A stretch of DNA of 39,267 nt from Ruminiclostridium sp. (GTDB lineage Bacteria > Bacillota > Clostridia > Oscillospirales > Ruminococcaceae): NCBI GenBank assembly GCA_016282095.1, contig JAEEJW010000161.1:1-39267 (forward strand), read 5' to 3'. The notes below the pieces were generated by a model that searched no databases, was not told the DNA's origin, and saw nothing but the letters and a program-made list of their open reading frames with translations. The first letter of the stretch is position 1, and each line of letters opens with the position of its first letter. This document shows, piece by piece, positions 23,117-29,688 of the stretch. A program made the translations under genes and the position numbers.

Positions 23117-23698
23117 TTATATTTTTGTAAGAGAATCCGCCCTTATGTATGTGTACATCTGGCCGGCCTCTTCATAGCAGTCCATAACGCCGCGGACACG
23201 GATATCGTCCTGTACTTCGGGGTAATCTCCGGGGTAGGAGGCGCCTGTGAGTATGAATTCAAGCCCCTGCACGCAGCAGGCAGTCGCGTCCGGCACGACA
23301 ACAAAGAAATATCTCGTGTCAGACCCGTCGTAGACCATAGTGTCGAAATATCCGTCTACCAGAAGGCTCTTGCCGTAGTAGCTGTCCGGGTTTATCATCA
23401 TATCGTAGATGACAGAGTATATCATAGTGGAATTCATCTGCGTCAGGTCGATATCCACCGCGGTACCGTCCTGTGACGCGGGAGTTTCCGCCGCGGCAGC
23501 CGTGGTCTCCGGAGCAGCCGCAGTAGTCGCTGAGGCTTTCGGAGCAGCCTCCGAAGCCTGTGCAGCGGCTTCGCTCATTATGTTGTTTATCAGCGCACTC
23601 GGGCTGTCCGGAGCTTTCGCGGCAGGCTGCTGAGCACAGGACGAACACAGAAGAAGCGCCGCAGCTGTAAGAGCGGCGGCCTTTGCAGTTTTTTTCAT
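23117..23698 (-). CDS. lipoprotein, possible OB-fold domain, zinc operon
   Basis: The ORF-track start is too far upstream. The ATG at 23698 overlaps the permease stop (TGATG), and AAGGAGG lies inside the permease end. 193 residues. The signal peptide ends in LLLCSSCAQQ (lipobox), followed by an Ala/Thr-rich linker to about residue 75. The C-terminal domain has SYYGKSLLVDGYFDT, RYFFVVVPDATACCVQGLEF and DIRVRGVMDCYE. The strand pattern and the CC pair resemble the outer part of TIGR03943-type proteins that accompany zinc transporters. A zinc-handling role is inferred from operon position and this likeness. Confidence 0.7.
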   Translation of the reverse strand: MKKTAKAAALTAAALLLCSSCAQQPAAKAPDSPSALINNIMSEAAAQASEAAPKASATTAAAPETTAAAAETPASQDGTAVDIDLTQMNSTMIYSVIYDMMINPDSYYGKSLLVDGYFDTMVYDGSDTRYFFVVVPDATACCVQGLEFILTGASYPGDYPEVQDDIRVRGVMDCYEEAGQMYTYIRADSLTKI

Positions 23699-24537
23699 CA
23701 AGCCTTCCTCCTTGTGAAGAGAGAAACTATACAGAATATAAAGAATACCGCGATATCTGTAACGACGATAGTCGAGCCGACAGGCGTTCCCGCCATTATG
23801 GAGGTGAAGATACCCACACCCGCGCATATAACAGAGATAACGGCGGAGCAGATTATCACGCTCCTGAAGCTGCGGAACACTCTCATAGCCGACAGGGCAG
23901 GGAATATTATGAGCGCCGATATAAGCAGCGAACCCACAAGGTTCATCGCAAGCACGATTATGAGCGCGGTTATTATCGCTATCAGCAGGTTGTAGCCCTC
24001 GGCCTTTACGCCGGCAGCCTTTATGAAGTTCTCGTCAAACGTCACCGCGAATATCTTGTGATAGAACAGCAGGAACACTGCGATAACTATGACCGACATT
24101 ATTATGCAGAGGATAACGTCCTCGGGTTTCAGCGTAAGTATGGATGTTGAACCGAACAGCGTCGTGCAGACATCGCCGGAGATGTTCGCCGAGGAGGGGA
24201 ACAGGTTCATCAGCATATAGCCCACAGCAAGCGCTCCCACGGAGATCATCGCTATTGCTGCGTCGCCGTTTATCTTCGCGTTCTGACCTGTCCGCAGGAG
24301 CAGCACCGCCGAAATAACGGTTATCGGCAGAACGACATACATATTGTTTGTAAGCCCCAGAACTCCCGCTATCGCCATTGCGCCGAACGCGACGTGTGAA
24401 AGCCCGTCCCCGATGTAGGAGAAGCGTTTCAGCACCAGCGTCACGCCCAGCAGGGAGGAGCAGAGCGCTATGAGAAGCCCGACTATCAGCGCGTACCACA
24501 CAAACGGGTAGCTGAAATAAAGCTGTAATTTCGCCAT
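23698..24537 (-). CDS. znuB: zinc ABC transporter permease
   Basis: About 279 residues from the ATG at 24537 (MAKLQLYFSYPFVWYALIVG). Earlier in-frame starts would overlap the ATPase gene. At least seven hydrophobic helices are present, with the ABC-3 family marks LLGVTLVLKRFSYIGDGLSH, the VAFGAMAIAGVLGL helix and NLVGSLLISALIIFPALSA before the last helices. It forms the membrane channel for metal brought by ZnuA. There are 7 nt between this start and the ATPase stop; no good ribosome-binding site is seen, suggesting coupling. A TTG five codons earlier is an alternative start. Confidence 0.9.
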   Translation of the reverse strand: MAKLQLYFSYPFVWYALIVGLLIALCSSLLGVTLVLKRFSYIGDGLSHVAFGAMAIAGVLGLTNNMYVVLPITVISAVLLLRTGQNAKINGDAAIAMISVGALAVGYMLMNLFPSSANISGDVCTTLFGSTSILTLKPEDVILCIIMSVIVIAVFLLFYHKIFAVTFDENFIKAAGVKAEGYNLLIAIITALIIVLAMNLVGSLLISALIIFPALSAMRVFRSFRSVIICSAVISVICAGVGIFTSIMAGTPVGSTIVVTDIAVFFIFCIVSLFTRRKA

Positions 24538-24544
24538 GAATTCG

Positions 24545-25294
24545 TTAGTCAATCCCGTTTTCCGTCCTTTCCACGGATTCTTCCTGTATGTGCGCACTTT
24601 CGGAGAAGATCCTGCCTGTTTCGCTTTTCAGATAATCGGCTGTTCTGCCGAAGAAGAGCTGATGATGCGCACCTATGTGGAGTATGTGTGAAGCGTATCT
24701 GATCGCCGCCCCGAAGTCATGTGATACCATGATTATCGTCACACCGTTCCTGTTAAGCTCCGCGATCAGATCGTAGAGATCGAGCTGCGCCTTCGGGTCG
24801 AGACCGGTGACCGGCTCGTCAAGGAGCAGTACCTTCTGCGCAGCGCAGAGAGCACGCGCGATGAGCACGCGCTGCTGCTGACCTCCGGAAAGCTCGCGGT
24901 AACAGCGCTTCGCCAGATCTGTTATTCCCAGACGCTCCATTGTGCTGCGTACCATTTCTTTTTCTTCCTTCTTGTAGAAAGGCCGCAGTCCGCATTTCGG
25001 CAGACAGCCCGAAAGCACTATCTCCTGCACCGAAGCAGGGAAGTCTCTCTGTATTGCATTCTGCTGCGGCAGGTAGCCTATATCTCCGGCCTTCATATCG
25101 GCAGGCCGTTCCATGATGCCCGACATAGGCTTGTTCAGCCCGAGCAGAGCTTTTATGAGAGTGCTCTTTCCCGAGCCGTTCTCACCGAGTATGCAGAGAT
25201 AATCGCCCTCGGTTATATCGAAGTTCAGACCGCTTACAACGGCGCTGCCCTCCCAGCCGAGTACTATATCCTGACAATGAAGCAGGTTCCCCAT
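24545..25294 (-). CDS. znuC: zinc ABC transporter ATP-binding protein
   Basis: A 249-residue ABC ATPase. Walker A is GENGSGKST, the Q-loop lies in YLPQQNAIQRDFPASV, the signature is LSGGQQQR, Walker B is VLLLDEPVTGLD and the H-loop is VSHD. QNAIQRDFP and PASVQEIVLSGCL are typical of the zinc/manganese uptake branch. It powers ZnuB. It starts 13 nt after znuA ends. The last 25 residues are polar and acidic, with no known role. Confidence 0.94.
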   Translation of the reverse strand: MGNLLHCQDIVLGWEGSAVVSGLNFDITEGDYLCILGENGSGKSTLIKALLGLNKPMSGIMERPADMKAGDIGYLPQQNAIQRDFPASVQEIVLSGCLPKCGLRPFYKKEEKEMVRSTMERLGITDLAKRCYRELSGGQQQRVLIARALCAAQKVLLLDEPVTGLDPKAQLDLYDLIAELNRNGVTIIMVSHDFGAAIRYASHILHIGAHHQLFFGRTADYLKSETGRIFSESAHIQEESVERTENGID

Positions 25295-25307: not shown

Positions 25308-26351
25308 TTATTTCAATGTATTTTTCAGCACTTCAAGGTTTTCACGCATCAGCGAGATGTAGGTAGTGCCGGACTCTGCCTCCGCGCTCTTCACGGATTG
25401 TATGGAGTTCAGCGCCGCGATGTTCTGATCCTTGTTCTTTGTGCTGTTTATGATCGTCCGGGCTATGGAGCCGTCGGAATTCTCAATCGTGTATATTGTC
25501 TTTACGCCCAGCTCGTCGAGCTTGTTTGCGAGGAACACCACAGTCTCGAAGCTGGCTTCGGTCTCCGCGGAACAGCCTGCGAATGCAGCGTAGTAATCGA
25601 GTCCGTAGTCCTCCGTGAAGTAGCGGAACGGGAATCTGTCCCCGAATACCACAGTCTTCACGGGCGCCGCGGAAATGACTTCTCTGAAGTCTGCGTCCAG
25701 CTTATCCAGCTCTGCGGAGTAAGCCGTCAGGTTCGCTTTGTATGTATCGGCGTCTGCCGTATCGAGAGCGCAGAGCTTATCGGTGATCTGTCCGCATATC
25801 AGTTTCGCGTTGCTTACGGACAGCCAGACGTGCTCGTCGTATTCGATCTCTTCTTCTTCCTCATGTTCATGCTCATGCTCGTCTTCATCTTCATGCTCAT
25901 GCTCTTCTTCTTCATGCTCATGCTCATGTTCATGTTCCATGCCTTCTTTGAACTCCTCGGCTTTGAGACCGCTGCCGACGGCTTCGAGCAGGCTTAAAGT
26001 CTGCATATTCTTGTTCAGCGCATTCGCGAGGGCATCATCCACCCACTTGTCCGACTCGCCGCCGACGTAGATAAGCAGGTCGCAGTCGGATATTTTTATA
26101 ATATCGTCGGCTGTGGGCTGGAAGTTATGCATATCGGTGCCGCTTCCCAGCAGGTAGGTGATATCGGCTTCTGCGGCCTTATTGCCCATTATCTGTCTTA
26201 CCCAGTCATATTCGGGGAAGACGGTGCAGACTATTTTCAGCTTATCGGAATTTCCGGTGTTTACTGCGGACGCGCTCTGACCGCAGGCGGAAACGCCTGT
26301 TACGATGAGCGCGAGGGCTGCGAATAATGATATTTTCTTTTTGTTTGACAT
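25308..26351 (-). CDS. znuA: zinc-binding lipoprotein of ABC transporter
   Basis: The start is at 26351 (GGAGG 10 nt upstream; MSNKKKISLFAALALIVTG), not 26414. 347 residues. Signal peptide with the lipobox VSAC. The cluster A-I metal-binding fold is shown by VFPEYDWVRQIMG, LGSGTDMHNFQPTADDIIKI (first metal His), YDEHVWLS (second His) and FGDRFPFRYFTEDYGL (third site; Arg/Phe where many homologues have a His). The loop before the second site is very His/Glu-rich (runs of HEHEHEHEEEE), a mark of zinc-specific members that gathers or senses zinc. It delivers zinc to ZnuBC. Confidence 0.95.
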   Translation of the reverse strand: MSNKKKISLFAALALIVTGVSACGQSASAVNTGNSDKLKIVCTVFPEYDWVRQIMGNKAAEADITYLLGSGTDMHNFQPTADDIIKISDCDLLIYVGGESDKWVDDALANALNKNMQTLSLLEAVGSGLKAEEFKEGMEHEHEHEHEEEEHEHEDEDEHEHEHEEEEEIEYDEHVWLSVSNAKLICGQITDKLCALDTADADTYKANLTAYSAELDKLDADFREVISAAPVKTVVFGDRFPFRYFTEDYGLDYYAAFAGCSAETEASFETVVFLANKLDELGVKTIYTIENSDGSIARTIINSTKNKDQNIAALNSIQSVKSAEAESGTTYISLMRENLEVLKNTLK

Positions 26352-26406: not shown

Positions 26407-26700
26407 CTATTCACGAAGCTCCGTTCTTAAAGTGACCGGCGTGACAGCGTCACATTTACGGAAAAGACGCAGTACAGCGGCGGCCACGGCAAATACGGCT
26501 GTAAAAAGCGCGGTTTCTGCTGCGGCAGCGCGGACACAGGACAGGATCCGTACAAATCCGGCTATCATGCGGCAGACGGCGCAGTCGTCGTCGTGTGTGC
26601 AGTTATGGTGTGAGCAGTTTGCGACGATGAAGAAGGAGCAGACGAGGGCTGCGCACAGCAGGACGGCGGTTAAAATCAGACGCTTTTTTCTTGCGGTCAT
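26407..26700 (-). CDS. small Cys/His-rich membrane protein of zinc operon
   Basis: 97 residues, no named family recognised. A first hydrophobic helix (residues 8-27) is followed by NCSHHNCTHDDDCAVCRMI, a cluster of four Cys and three His that could bind zinc outside the membrane. A second helix lies around residues 60-80. The last residues are basic and polar. It lies 4 nt after the Fur-type regulator and 55 nt before znuA, so it is zinc-regulated with them. Small proteins of this layout accompany zinc uptake genes in related Firmicutes as far as I recall; the molecular role is not known. Confidence 0.75.
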   Translation of the reverse strand: MTARKKRLILTAVLLCAALVCSFFIVANCSHHNCTHDDDCAVCRMIAGFVRILSCVRAAAAETALFTAVFAVAAAVLRLFRKCDAVTPVTLRTELRE

Positions 26701-26704
26701 ACAG

Positions 26705-27103
26705 TTATCCTCTGCATTTCTTACATTTAACGAGGAGTTCTATTTCATCTCCGGGAGCCACATCACCGCAGGCTGCGATATCTTCTTTTATGCGGCGACT
26801 TGTTTCGGTATCGGCGCTGTAGACTTTGCCGCAGACTTTACAGCGCATATTGACTGCGGGCTCGTCGCTGTCGGTGAGGGAATATACATATTCTCTGTTT
26901 TCGGGGTCTATGGTTCTTGTGACGGTTCCGGAATGTTCGAGTTCGCGCAGGAGTCTGTATATTGTACTTCCCGAAGTGAGGTTTCTGGTCTCTTCATGTT
27001 TTTCCATTTCGGAGACTATTTCTCTCACGGTGAAGGAGCTATTAGGGTGATTTTTCAGGAATTCAAGCAGGTTTTCACGTCTTGCGGTTTTATATGTTGC
27101 CAC
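26705..27103 (-). CDS. zur: Fur-family regulator, probably Zur
   Basis: 132 residues, GTG start, with AGGAGG 7 nt upstream. The N-terminal winged helix has NSSFTVREIVSEMEKHEE and GSTIYRLLRELEHSGTVTR. The C-terminal dimerisation domain has the structural-zinc pairs CKVCG and CKKC. The usual HxHxxC sensor motif is reduced to VNMRCKVC, so sensing ligands must come from elsewhere. Zinc specificity (Zur) is inferred from the five following zinc-uptake genes. It heads the operon, and a Fur-box-like palindrome lies in its leader, which suggests autoregulation. Confidence 0.85.
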   Translation of the reverse strand: MATYKTARRENLLEFLKNHPNSSFTVREIVSEMEKHEETRNLTSGSTIYRLLRELEHSGTVTRTIDPENREYVYSLTDSDEPAVNMRCKVCGKVYSADTETSRRIKEDIAACGDVAPGDEIELLVKCKKCRG

Positions 27104-27123: not shown

Positions 27124-27140
27124 TTGAAATCGGTTTTCAA
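27124..27140 (-). promoter_or_regulatory. Fur/Zur-box-like operator
   Basis: TTGAAATCGGTTTTCAA (plus strand) is an inverted repeat. Its 15-nt core has the 7-1-7 layout of Fur-family operators, with TGAAAAC against TGAAATC (6 of 7 matching). It lies about 7-23 nt after the predicted transcription start of the zinc operon, where a bound repressor would block transcription. Confidence 0.65.
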
Positions 27141-27457: not shown

Positions 27458-27599
27458 AGGCGTACTACCTACCGAATCTGCAAGGCGAAGCGATTTAAGT
27501 TTAGGCTAAGCCCTTTTCAAAGGGCGTCATACTCAAGCGCAAGCGACTCTCAAACACTTGAGCGCAAGCGACTACTTGTTCCCGTTCTTGAACGAGGCT
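27458..27599 (-). repeat. gene-3'-end repeat element, copy D (beside the EAL gene)
   Basis: Core 27458-27530 with GCAAGGCGAAGCGATTTAAG and the GCCCTTTTCAAAGGGC palindrome. Units start at 27532, 27557 and (degenerate) 27587, the same 25/30-nt spacing as copy A. The last unit overlaps the EAL stop codon at 27598-27600. Outer modules continue to the GTTTTATTTCGCCC boundary at 27184-27197. Confidence 0.9.
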
Positions 27600-29688
27600 A
27601 CTGAAGTTCGTCTCTTTCGACACCGTTGACTTTAAGGCGGTATTTGCCGCCGGTGAGGTTGAGGCTGGTGTTTTCATGGATATAGCAATCCTCGTACTGT
27701 GTATTGATCTCTGCGGAGAGGTCGATATAAGTGGTGGAGAAACGGGCTCCGCCGTTGATGCCTCCGAAGAGCAGGGCATTGGCGCCTTCCGCCTTTATCT
27801 GTATTGCCGAGCGTTCCAGAGCAATATCCGATTCGTTGAGAAGCGAACCGAATACCGTCAGAGCCTCGGCGCTCATAGCTATGTTCATGTGGATGCTTTC
27901 AGCGTGAACGGACGCTTTGGTGCCGCCCACGGTTCCGAGAGCGGCGGCGTGCAGGCTGTGCGCTTCGCACTTTATGCTGGAATAGCGCAGATTTATGCTT
28001 GCCTCGCCTTCAAGGGAGCCTATGACCGTGCTGTGCGCTCCGGTAGTCTTGCCGTCAAAGTCGCAGCCTATTATGTCGATATCCGCAAAACCGGAGTAAG
28101 CGCCTATGCAGACATTCATACTTCCTTCGCCGCACAGGACGTATCTTCCGCGGCAAATCCTTATCCTGCCGCCGAGACCTGAACCTATGCAGACGCCTTC
28201 GTGACTGTCGGAATGTATGGATATCGTGCCGTCCTGCTCGAATGTAAGCTCTCCGTGCGGCGATTCCAGATCATTTCCTATGCCGTAGTAGTTTGCGCCG
28301 CCGAGAGATATTTCAAGACTGCCCTTGCCAACAAGTTTCAGCTTCGACGAGGCAGGTACCTTTATTCCTGCCTTATTGAGTTTGTTGGTACCGTTGAGTA
28401 CCAGAGTGACGTCGCTGTCCTCGCCTACTGCAAAGGCAGCTCTGCCGGGTAGGTTGGAGATCACGGCATTTTCAAGTATTATCGTGCCGTGGAAGCTCTC
28501 CGCTGTCTCGATGTGTATGTCGGTCTCAAGGTACTGCGAACCCGCTATCGTGACGGTGCCGCCAAGGTAGCCGTTGCCGATTATGATGCGGTCGTAGCCG
28601 TCCTTGTAGAGCTTGTCGAGGTTGACTCTCTCGCTTTCCTGCGCGCTGTATATCTTCATGCGCTTGCCGTCGTCGCGCTCCTGCCTGTGGGAGCGTATCT
28701 CCGAGCGCAGCTCATAGGGCAGAGCCTGCAATACTTCCGGTGCCGGTCTCGCGGTGTAGAAGCCCTGTATCAGATCAACGCCCAGCAGTATCACGGTGCG
28801 CAGCTCGTCGGAGCTTTCAACGCCCTCGGCAAGCGCGAGTATGCCGTTTTCGTGGCAGAAATCGATGATCTCACGGACGAAGTGCTTCTTGTTCGGGTTG
28901 CCGCTGATGCCGCTCAGGAGAGAGCGGTCTATCTTTACAAAGTTGGGCGTGTACCGCAGCAGGTTGCTGATATTCGAGTAGCCCGTGCCGTAATCGTCTA
29001 TGGCGATGCGTACATCAAGCCGCCTGTACTTCGATTTTATATCGTTGAGCTCGTCATCGCTGAATTCCGAGCTTTCCGTCATCTCCACCACGACCATATC
29101 CGAGAGTTTCCGCAGAAGTGTCTCTATCTTCTCCGCGCTTTCACTGTCGATGCGGGTGCTTGGCATACTGTTGATGAATACGGGTCTGTCCGCAAAAAGC
29201 TCGCGGTGAGTATCGATGAAGTTCAGCACATTCAGGAAAGTGTACTGCTCAACTTCGTCGAGCCTGTCTGTGAGCTCCGCGTACTTGAGAATATGAAAAG
29301 GCGTGATGCCCTGCATCTCCCCGGCGCGCATAAGAGCCTCATAAGAGTATATCTCGCCGTTGTCGGCGCGCACGATAGGCTGGAAGTGGTAGGTGAACAG
29401 GTTGCAGTCGATGAGCTCCTGCACCTTTATTATCTCGGCGTGTTCGGTTTCGCTGAGAATGTCCTTGTTGCGCAGATCCGCCTTTTTCAGCTCCTCGCGC
29501 AGGTAGACTACCTCGGACACAACGCCGTACACATTCTTCCTGAGATTCTCCATATCCGGATCGTCACCGGTAACGGGCGTGAGCAGTCCGAATTCACGGT
29601 TCAGCTTTTTGAGTGCTTCCGTGTCGTTTGTGACTTTGGCACGTTCTATGTATTCGTTGAGAATGGCTGCCGTATTTTTTCCGGACAT
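27598..29688 (-). CDS. EAL-domain c-di-GMP phosphodiesterase fused to beta-helix-like domain
   Basis: 696 residues, no signal peptide or membrane helix. Residues 1-85 are helical. Residues 88-335 are an EAL domain with the catalytic set intact: EALMR (Glu117), INSMPSTR (Asn173), EMTES, IAIDDYGTGYSN (Asp231/232), VKIDRS (Lys252), AEGVES (Glu288) and QGFYTARP (Gln308). It should hydrolyse cyclic di-GMP. Residues 345-696 are repetitive, Gly/Ser/Asn-rich short strands (GNGYLGGTVTIAG, GVCIGSGLGGRIRICRG, IGAYSGFADIDIIG) of the kind seen in right-handed beta-helix or DUF4353-like domains, which are normally extracellular. It lies 31 nt after the GNAT-like gene (AAAGGTGG before the ATG) and ends at repeat element D. 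Confidence 0.88.
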   Translation of the reverse strand: MSGKNTAAILNEYIERAKVTNDTEALKKLNREFGLLTPVTGDDPDMENLRKNVYGVVSEVVYLREELKKADLRNKDILSETEHAEIIKVQELIDCNLFTYHFQPIVRADNGEIYSYEALMRAGEMQGITPFHILKYAELTDRLDEVEQYTFLNVLNFIDTHRELFADRPVFINSMPSTRIDSESAEKIETLLRKLSDMVVVEMTESSEFSDDELNDIKSKYRRLDVRIAIDDYGTGYSNISNLLRYTPNFVKIDRSLLSGISGNPNKKHFVREIIDFCHENGILALAEGVESSDELRTVILLGVDLIQGFYTARPAPEVLQALPYELRSEIRSHRQERDDGKRMKIYSAQESERVNLDKLYKDGYDRIIIGNGYLGGTVTIAGSQYLETDIHIETAESFHGTIILENAVISNLPGRAAFAVGEDSDVTLVLNGTNKLNKAGIKVPASSKLKLVGKGSLEISLGGANYYGIGNDLESPHGELTFEQDGTISIHSDSHEGVCIGSGLGGRIRICRGRYVLCGEGSMNVCIGAYSGFADIDIIGCDFDGKTTGAHSTVIGSLEGEASINLRYSSIKCEAHSLHAAALGTVGGTKASVHAESIHMNIAMSAEALTVFGSLLNESDIALERSAIQIKAEGANALLFGGINGGARFSTTYIDLSAEINTQYEDCYIHENTSLNLTGGKYRLKVNGVERDELQ

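Follow-up and report, generated by a model that had tools for sequence, protein, structure and literature searches.

A small Cys/His-containing membrane protein linked to the Znu zinc-uptake operon of Clostridia, a putative zinc-handling accessory

Importing zinc when it is scarce is one of the main things over which gut organisms compete, and the Znu system responsible for it is usually treated as a three-protein machine. Some ABC importers have zinc-binding helpers that are encoded or regulated together with them, such as ZinT, AztD, and ZrgA, which are soluble, exported proteins. Small membrane proteins are known from other metal transport systems: MerF and MerT have two or three helices and use cysteines for the metal. 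ZinT and ZrgABC are both listed in a review on Zur (PMC6103462).

The window, by which we mean the whole stretch of 39,267 nucleotides that was analyzed, contains a zinc operon with the order predicted Zur box, zur, orf97, znuA, znuC, znuB, and lipoY. Its features are:

27125 to 27139, minus strand: putative Zur/Fur-type operator TGAAAACCGATTTCA, 36 nt upstream of zur (recurrence in genus loci; shuffles)
26705 to 27103, minus strand: zur, FUR-family repressor, first gene of the operon (PF01475, E 2.3e-12)
26407 to 26700, minus strand: orf97, 97-residue two-helix membrane protein with an HxC...CxxC loop (ORF, Shine-Dalgarno, homologues, dN/dS)
25308 to 26351, minus strand: znuA, zinc-binding lipoprotein with a His/Glu-rich loop (PF01297, E 1.5e-67)
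24545 to 25294, minus strand: znuC, ABC ATPase (PF00005; best NCBIfam match AztA, under its cut-off)
23698 to 24540, minus strand: znuB, ABC-3 permease (PF00950, E 5.3e-47)
23117 to 23701, minus strand: lipoY, lipoprotein bearing the motif DATACCxQGxEF and an OB domain that resembles DUF1980_C/TIGR03943 (profiles, AlphaFold2, OB-fold matches)

A long His/Glu-rich loop is carried by the zinc-binding members of the ZnuA family, and the window's genome holds a single ZnuA match (E <= 0.001). The first-pass annotation had placed a 97-residue Cys/His-rich membrane protein between zur and znuA without giving a strand. The reading frame is present, on the minus strand, and the genes flanking it score as FUR-family and ZnuA-family members with the E values listed above. 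It starts 4 nt past the zur stop, the final codons of zur contain its Shine-Dalgarno sequence, and 55 nt separate its end from the likely ATG of znuA. When 99 related genomes were searched with the single sequence, 13 homologous copies were returned from beyond the window, all in the same genus (E 9e-25 to 2e-11), and no other convincing match. Relative to close homologues, dN/dS is 0.15-0.20 in four informative comparisons, with mostly synonymous divergence; a fifth pair, with just five changes, was uninformative. Searching the order and class with a profile built from the genus copies (A1) yielded further homologues, and a broader profile (A2) found three more in other classes when the rest of Bacillota was searched. 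Because homologues occur in the genus and, by the dozen, in the order, class, and phylum, and because divergence is dominated by synonymous changes, orf97 is a real gene and not a chance ORF. Four weak class-level matches (G469, G489, G624, and G692) were set aside; their E values are above 1e-5, and they are partial and mostly lie within large ORFs or contain stops.

The protein is a member of a family without a name, whose very small membrane proteins of about 95-120 residues occur in gut and other Clostridia. The public genome contigs that carry it are Clostridia MAGs labeled Ruminiclostridium, Ruminococcus, or uncultured Clostridia, many of them from the rumen, and a single copy was also located on a replicon of Subdoligranulum variabile. 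No relatives were found in the viral contigs searched. A Pfam scan of 30 members gave no family at the curated cut-off, and neither did an NCBIfam scan of the window protein and five others. Such matches as Pfam and NCBIfam did give (Nodulin_late, 7tm_1, SpoIIM, Trp_oprn_chp, and others) were isolated, weak, and below cut-off, fell in unrelated families, and were rejected as compositional. Searches of the PDB by sequence and, with a model, by fold returned no match. In the literature, context-based searches covering few subscription journals did not find the family described; term searches of papers on ZepA (PMC10957091) and COG0523 (PMC2770081), and of the Zur review (PMC6103462), turned up passages that describe no counterpart.

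The element upstream of zur is a 15-bp Fur-type inverted repeat, and for the window none of 500 shuffles gave one as good. TGAAAACCGATTTCA recurs at nearly the same place in two genus loci (L031 and L032), and two others (L040 and L041) carry TAAAATCCGATTTTA, a perfect 7-1-7 palindrome in which both arms have changed. Several loci of the genus have a Fur-family palindrome at a distance of 31-38 nt before zur, and four (L034, L035, L037, and L043) lack a convincing box. A comparable box precedes zur in L042; L033 and L038, which have no adjacent zur, carry one before orf97 itself. In Clostridium thermocellum a Zur-like protein binds the site TGCAAATcATTTGCA, which precedes a zinc ABC operon, and the form of the window's box agrees with that site (PMC8457756). 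Also on the minus strand, at 27598-29688, the window encodes an EAL-domain protein (E 3.2e-52) whose long C-terminal half has no Pfam match and looks like repeat-rich beta structure; a homologue is found near the zinc operon of L032 as well.

Whether homologues keep the company of zinc genes was determined at 57 loci, 50 of them from protein-sequence searches, which are unbiased for context, and seven from inspection of znu loci. Each was taken together with its flanking DNA and scored by comparison with zur, znuA, znuC, znuB, and the lipoprotein of the window. znuA lies downstream on the same strand in 55 of the 57, usually at a spacing of 50-300 nt. The remaining two (L094 and L106) have lipoY 4 nt after orf97, with znuABC not adjoining. 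The predicted tie to zinc genes thus holds, and the association of orf97 with the zinc-uptake operon is well supported. In two loci (L034 and L040) orf97 occurs with znuA alone, and in another (L170) the order is orf97-znuA-lipoY. Because it is kept with znuA or lipoY in these five loci, orf97 tracks the exported partners, not the ABC core. Within the genus, loci whose znuB is 86-100% identical to that of the window have orf97; where znuB is about 57-70% identical, a diverged orf97 is found at seven of ten loci, and a further locus breaks off where its contig ends. At all ten inspected genus loci with lower-identity znuCB, both orf97 and lipoY are absent.

Additional genes occur in some of these operons. 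Three loci (L130, L134, and L135) encode an exported protein of 208-240 residues between orf97 and znuA. The one in L130, which has no Pfam match, carries many His, Asp, and Cys residues in its C-terminal part (GHGHGHDDDCDDDHDHDDDDC...), and the protein is likely a further zinc-binding protein. On the reverse strand of L117, orf97-znuA-znuC-znuB is followed by two ORFs that resemble COG0523 GTPases, one of them joined to a permease, both labels coming from our reading of the sequences without profile support. Within this stretch of about 6 kb downstream of orf97, at a distance of 5 kb from it, comes a protein of the TIGR03943 family (E 1.3e-37) with a C-terminal domain similar to lipoY; a DUF1980_C-type domain is therefore present there too. 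This operon links COG0523-like GTPases and the TIGR03943 family to zinc. A rearranged locus (L173, genome G455) has a tail-less orf97 running into znuC, with znuA missing and znuB and lipoY truncated, and represents either a decayed operon or an assembly error.

lipoY follows znuB and is the last gene of the zinc operon. Cys22 of its product is conserved, as is the C-terminal domain bearing DATACCxQGxEF, in which the CC pair is invariant. AlphaFold2 places a five-strand domain at residues 80-194 (pLDDT about 75-94), and the PDB matches to the model are OB folds with modest scores. Against PF21537 (DUF1980_C), seven of 21 members score below E 0.01 (best 9.1e-13; window member 0.15), and five of 21 do so against TIGR03943 (best 1.2e-11; window member 0.0036). 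Among 391 Clostridia genomes, 20 have both orf97 and lipoY, three have orf97 only (L117 comes from one of these), 14 have lipoY only, and 354 have neither, a co-occurrence with a Fisher p of 1.3e-21 if the genomes are treated as independent, which they are not. Counting in the four rejected weak matches changes the figures to 20, 7, 14, and 350. lipoY is more widespread than orf97, and the lipoY-only loci inspected have znuA-znuC-znuB-lipoY or a shortened form of it, with orf97 absent. Since 14 genomes carry lipoY with no detected orf97, orf97 is optional.

The segment of orf97 that was first singled out as a metal site, NCSHHNCTHDDDCAVCRMI, does lie between two hydrophobic stretches, one strong (mean Kyte-Doolittle 2.9) and one weaker (1.95). 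The following parts can be distinguished within the protein:

26620 to 26676, minus strand: first of two predicted membrane helices, roughly residues 9-27, following a positive N terminus (hydropathy, charge; AlphaFold2 helix 2-29)
26572 to 26607, minus strand: putative zinc site, H32-x-C34-THDDD-C40-x-x-C43 (residue conservation)
26461 to 26523, minus strand: predicted second membrane helix, about residues 60-80 (hydropathy; AlphaFold2 helix 41-84)
26410 to 26442, minus strand: conserved C-terminal tail TPVTLRTELRE, predicted cytoplasmic (column counts, 62 members)

The AlphaFold2 model, which is shallow (13 sequences, mean pLDDT 77.6, pTM 0.41), has helices at residues 2-29 and 41-84 and the putative metal site in the loop between them. 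The claim of a metal site is supported by conservation: CxxC (C40 and C43) is invariant in all 62 members, and 60 of the 62 have HxC (49) or HxH (11) before it, the other two being L130 and L172. H32 is at least 90% conserved in the A2 alignment. An invariant CxxC, together with the invariant CC of the partner lipoY, would also suit a thiol-redox protein whose disulfide protects or reduces the lipoY cysteines and which has no role in metal handling. However, the conserved His two residues before position 34 and the replacement of Cys by His at that position do not fit redox chemistry, and neither the Pfam scan of 30 members nor the fold search gave a thioredoxin-like match, making this explanation highly improbable. 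The swap from HxC to HxH keeps the type of metal ligand, as would be expected of a zinc site and not of a disulfide; the conservation pattern of the loop points to metal binding, and we infer zinc as the metal. A c-type cytochrome haem motif was considered and rejected, since the position following CxxC varies among R, A, H, Q, and others and CxxCH is not conserved.

The charge pattern of the protein, with a positive N terminus, a mostly acidic loop, and a usually positive tail, suggests by the positive-inside rule that both termini are inside and the loop outside in most members tested. The topology is not certain, because one outlier (L107) keeps the tail and shows no second hydrophobic helix. 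The 11-residue tail has the family form T-L/P-V-S-L-K-V-R-L-N-N, with T in 44, K in 50, V in 45, L in 46, and the terminal N in 45 of 62 members, and is conserved nearly to the level of the ligand residues. Apart from the ligands, it is the best-conserved part of the protein, and as a predicted cytoplasmic element it would not be needed by a simple carrier on the outside.

Because of this tail, a sensor reading stays alive, in which the outer loop reads Zn2+ occupancy and the tail acts on ZnuB/ZnuC, altering how active they are or how fast they turn over, or else passes a signal to some other protein of the cytoplasm. Transporters are acted on in this way by some small membrane proteins, and the combination of a predicted outer metal site with a strongly conserved, predicted cytoplasmic tail would suit such a function, as would an operon position that permits stoichiometric control. 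Yet some genomes have orf97 apart from znuC/znuB and beside lipoY or znuA, and no known sensor module or partner was found. We regard a sensor of this kind as possible, though on the improbable side. The bolder version, that orf97 represents a class of zinc sensor new to science, which sits in the membrane, detects the metal outside and through its tail directly gates the Znu importer or controls its turnover, is unlikely; if true, Clostridia would regulate zinc at a post-translational level in addition to the control by Zur.

A role at the outer face with the exported partners is favored instead, because orf97 is kept with znuA or lipoY when znuC/znuB are elsewhere. We propose, with about even confidence, that orf97 is a membrane-anchored zinc-binding accessory of the Clostridia-type Znu importer, acting with ZnuA and lipoY. 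It would be made under Zur control together with ZnuA, ZnuC, ZnuB, and lipoY, with both ends in the cytoplasm and the loop exposed outside the membrane. The loop may bind one Zn2+ through H32, C34 (or His), C40, and C43, and the protein, sitting beside ZnuA and lipoY at the membrane surface, would take up zinc or pass it on, a relay by which the importer could be loaded under zinc starvation. The tail may tether the protein to a partner in the cytoplasm, for which the ZnuB/ZnuC core is the simplest candidate. Judging from sequence, orf97 probably helps the importer to capture or pass on zinc; the direction of transfer, the partner of the tail, and the mechanism we infer. The original suggestion of a zinc sensor, chaperone, or transporter accessory, with the three taken together, is supported by the znuA linkage and the conservation of the Cys/His residues. 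The small size of orf97, its two helices, its operon position, and its tight linkage to lipoY could also belong to a structural or assembly factor that anchors ZnuA or lipoY at the permease or stabilizes ZnuB, zinc serving only to shape the loop. However, such a factor predicts the HxC to HxH swap no better than a transfer role does, and lipoY appears to have its own lipid anchor in Cys22; we consider it distinctly unlikely.

If the accessory role is confirmed, many Clostridia use a larger version of Znu, comprising zur, orf97, znuA, znuC, znuB, and lipoY, and zinc handling there is aided by orf97 and lipoY, proteins of the membrane or the exterior that have yet to be described. Both families lack a functional name, and a confirmed role would annotate dozens of genomes.

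How the locus stands to described systems can be stated for each. orf97 and other members gave no profile match to PF01297, PF00950, or PF00005, the families of canonical ZnuA, ZnuB, and ZnuC, and no described zinc-importer component matches orf97 by profile, in keeping with the initial view that it lies outside known ZnuABC systems. An orf97-like subunit of ZnuABC, AdcABC, or AztABC was likewise not found in the libraries or papers searched. Like ZinT, AztD, and ZrgA, orf97 would work as a zinc-binding helper of an importer, but those proteins are soluble and have other folds, whereas orf97 has two membrane helices and shows no detectable similarity to them. None of 30 members has a Pfam match to MerF or MerT, and unlike those proteins, orf97 is encoded next to genes for zinc uptake, not mercury. 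What ties the TIGR03943/DUF1980 (YcgQ-type) proteins to this operon is the putative DUF1980_C-like domain of lipoY; they are multi-helix membrane proteins, however, whereas lipoY is a lipoprotein, and orf97 is unrelated to them. The families of the cluster A-I type importers ZnuABC, AdcABC, and AztABC are matched by znuA, znuC, and znuB of the window, whose operon, led by a FUR-family gene, adds orf97 and lipoY. Taken together, the system of the window is a Clostridia-type ABC zinc importer, known in kind, probably Zur-controlled and with putative extra handling proteins.
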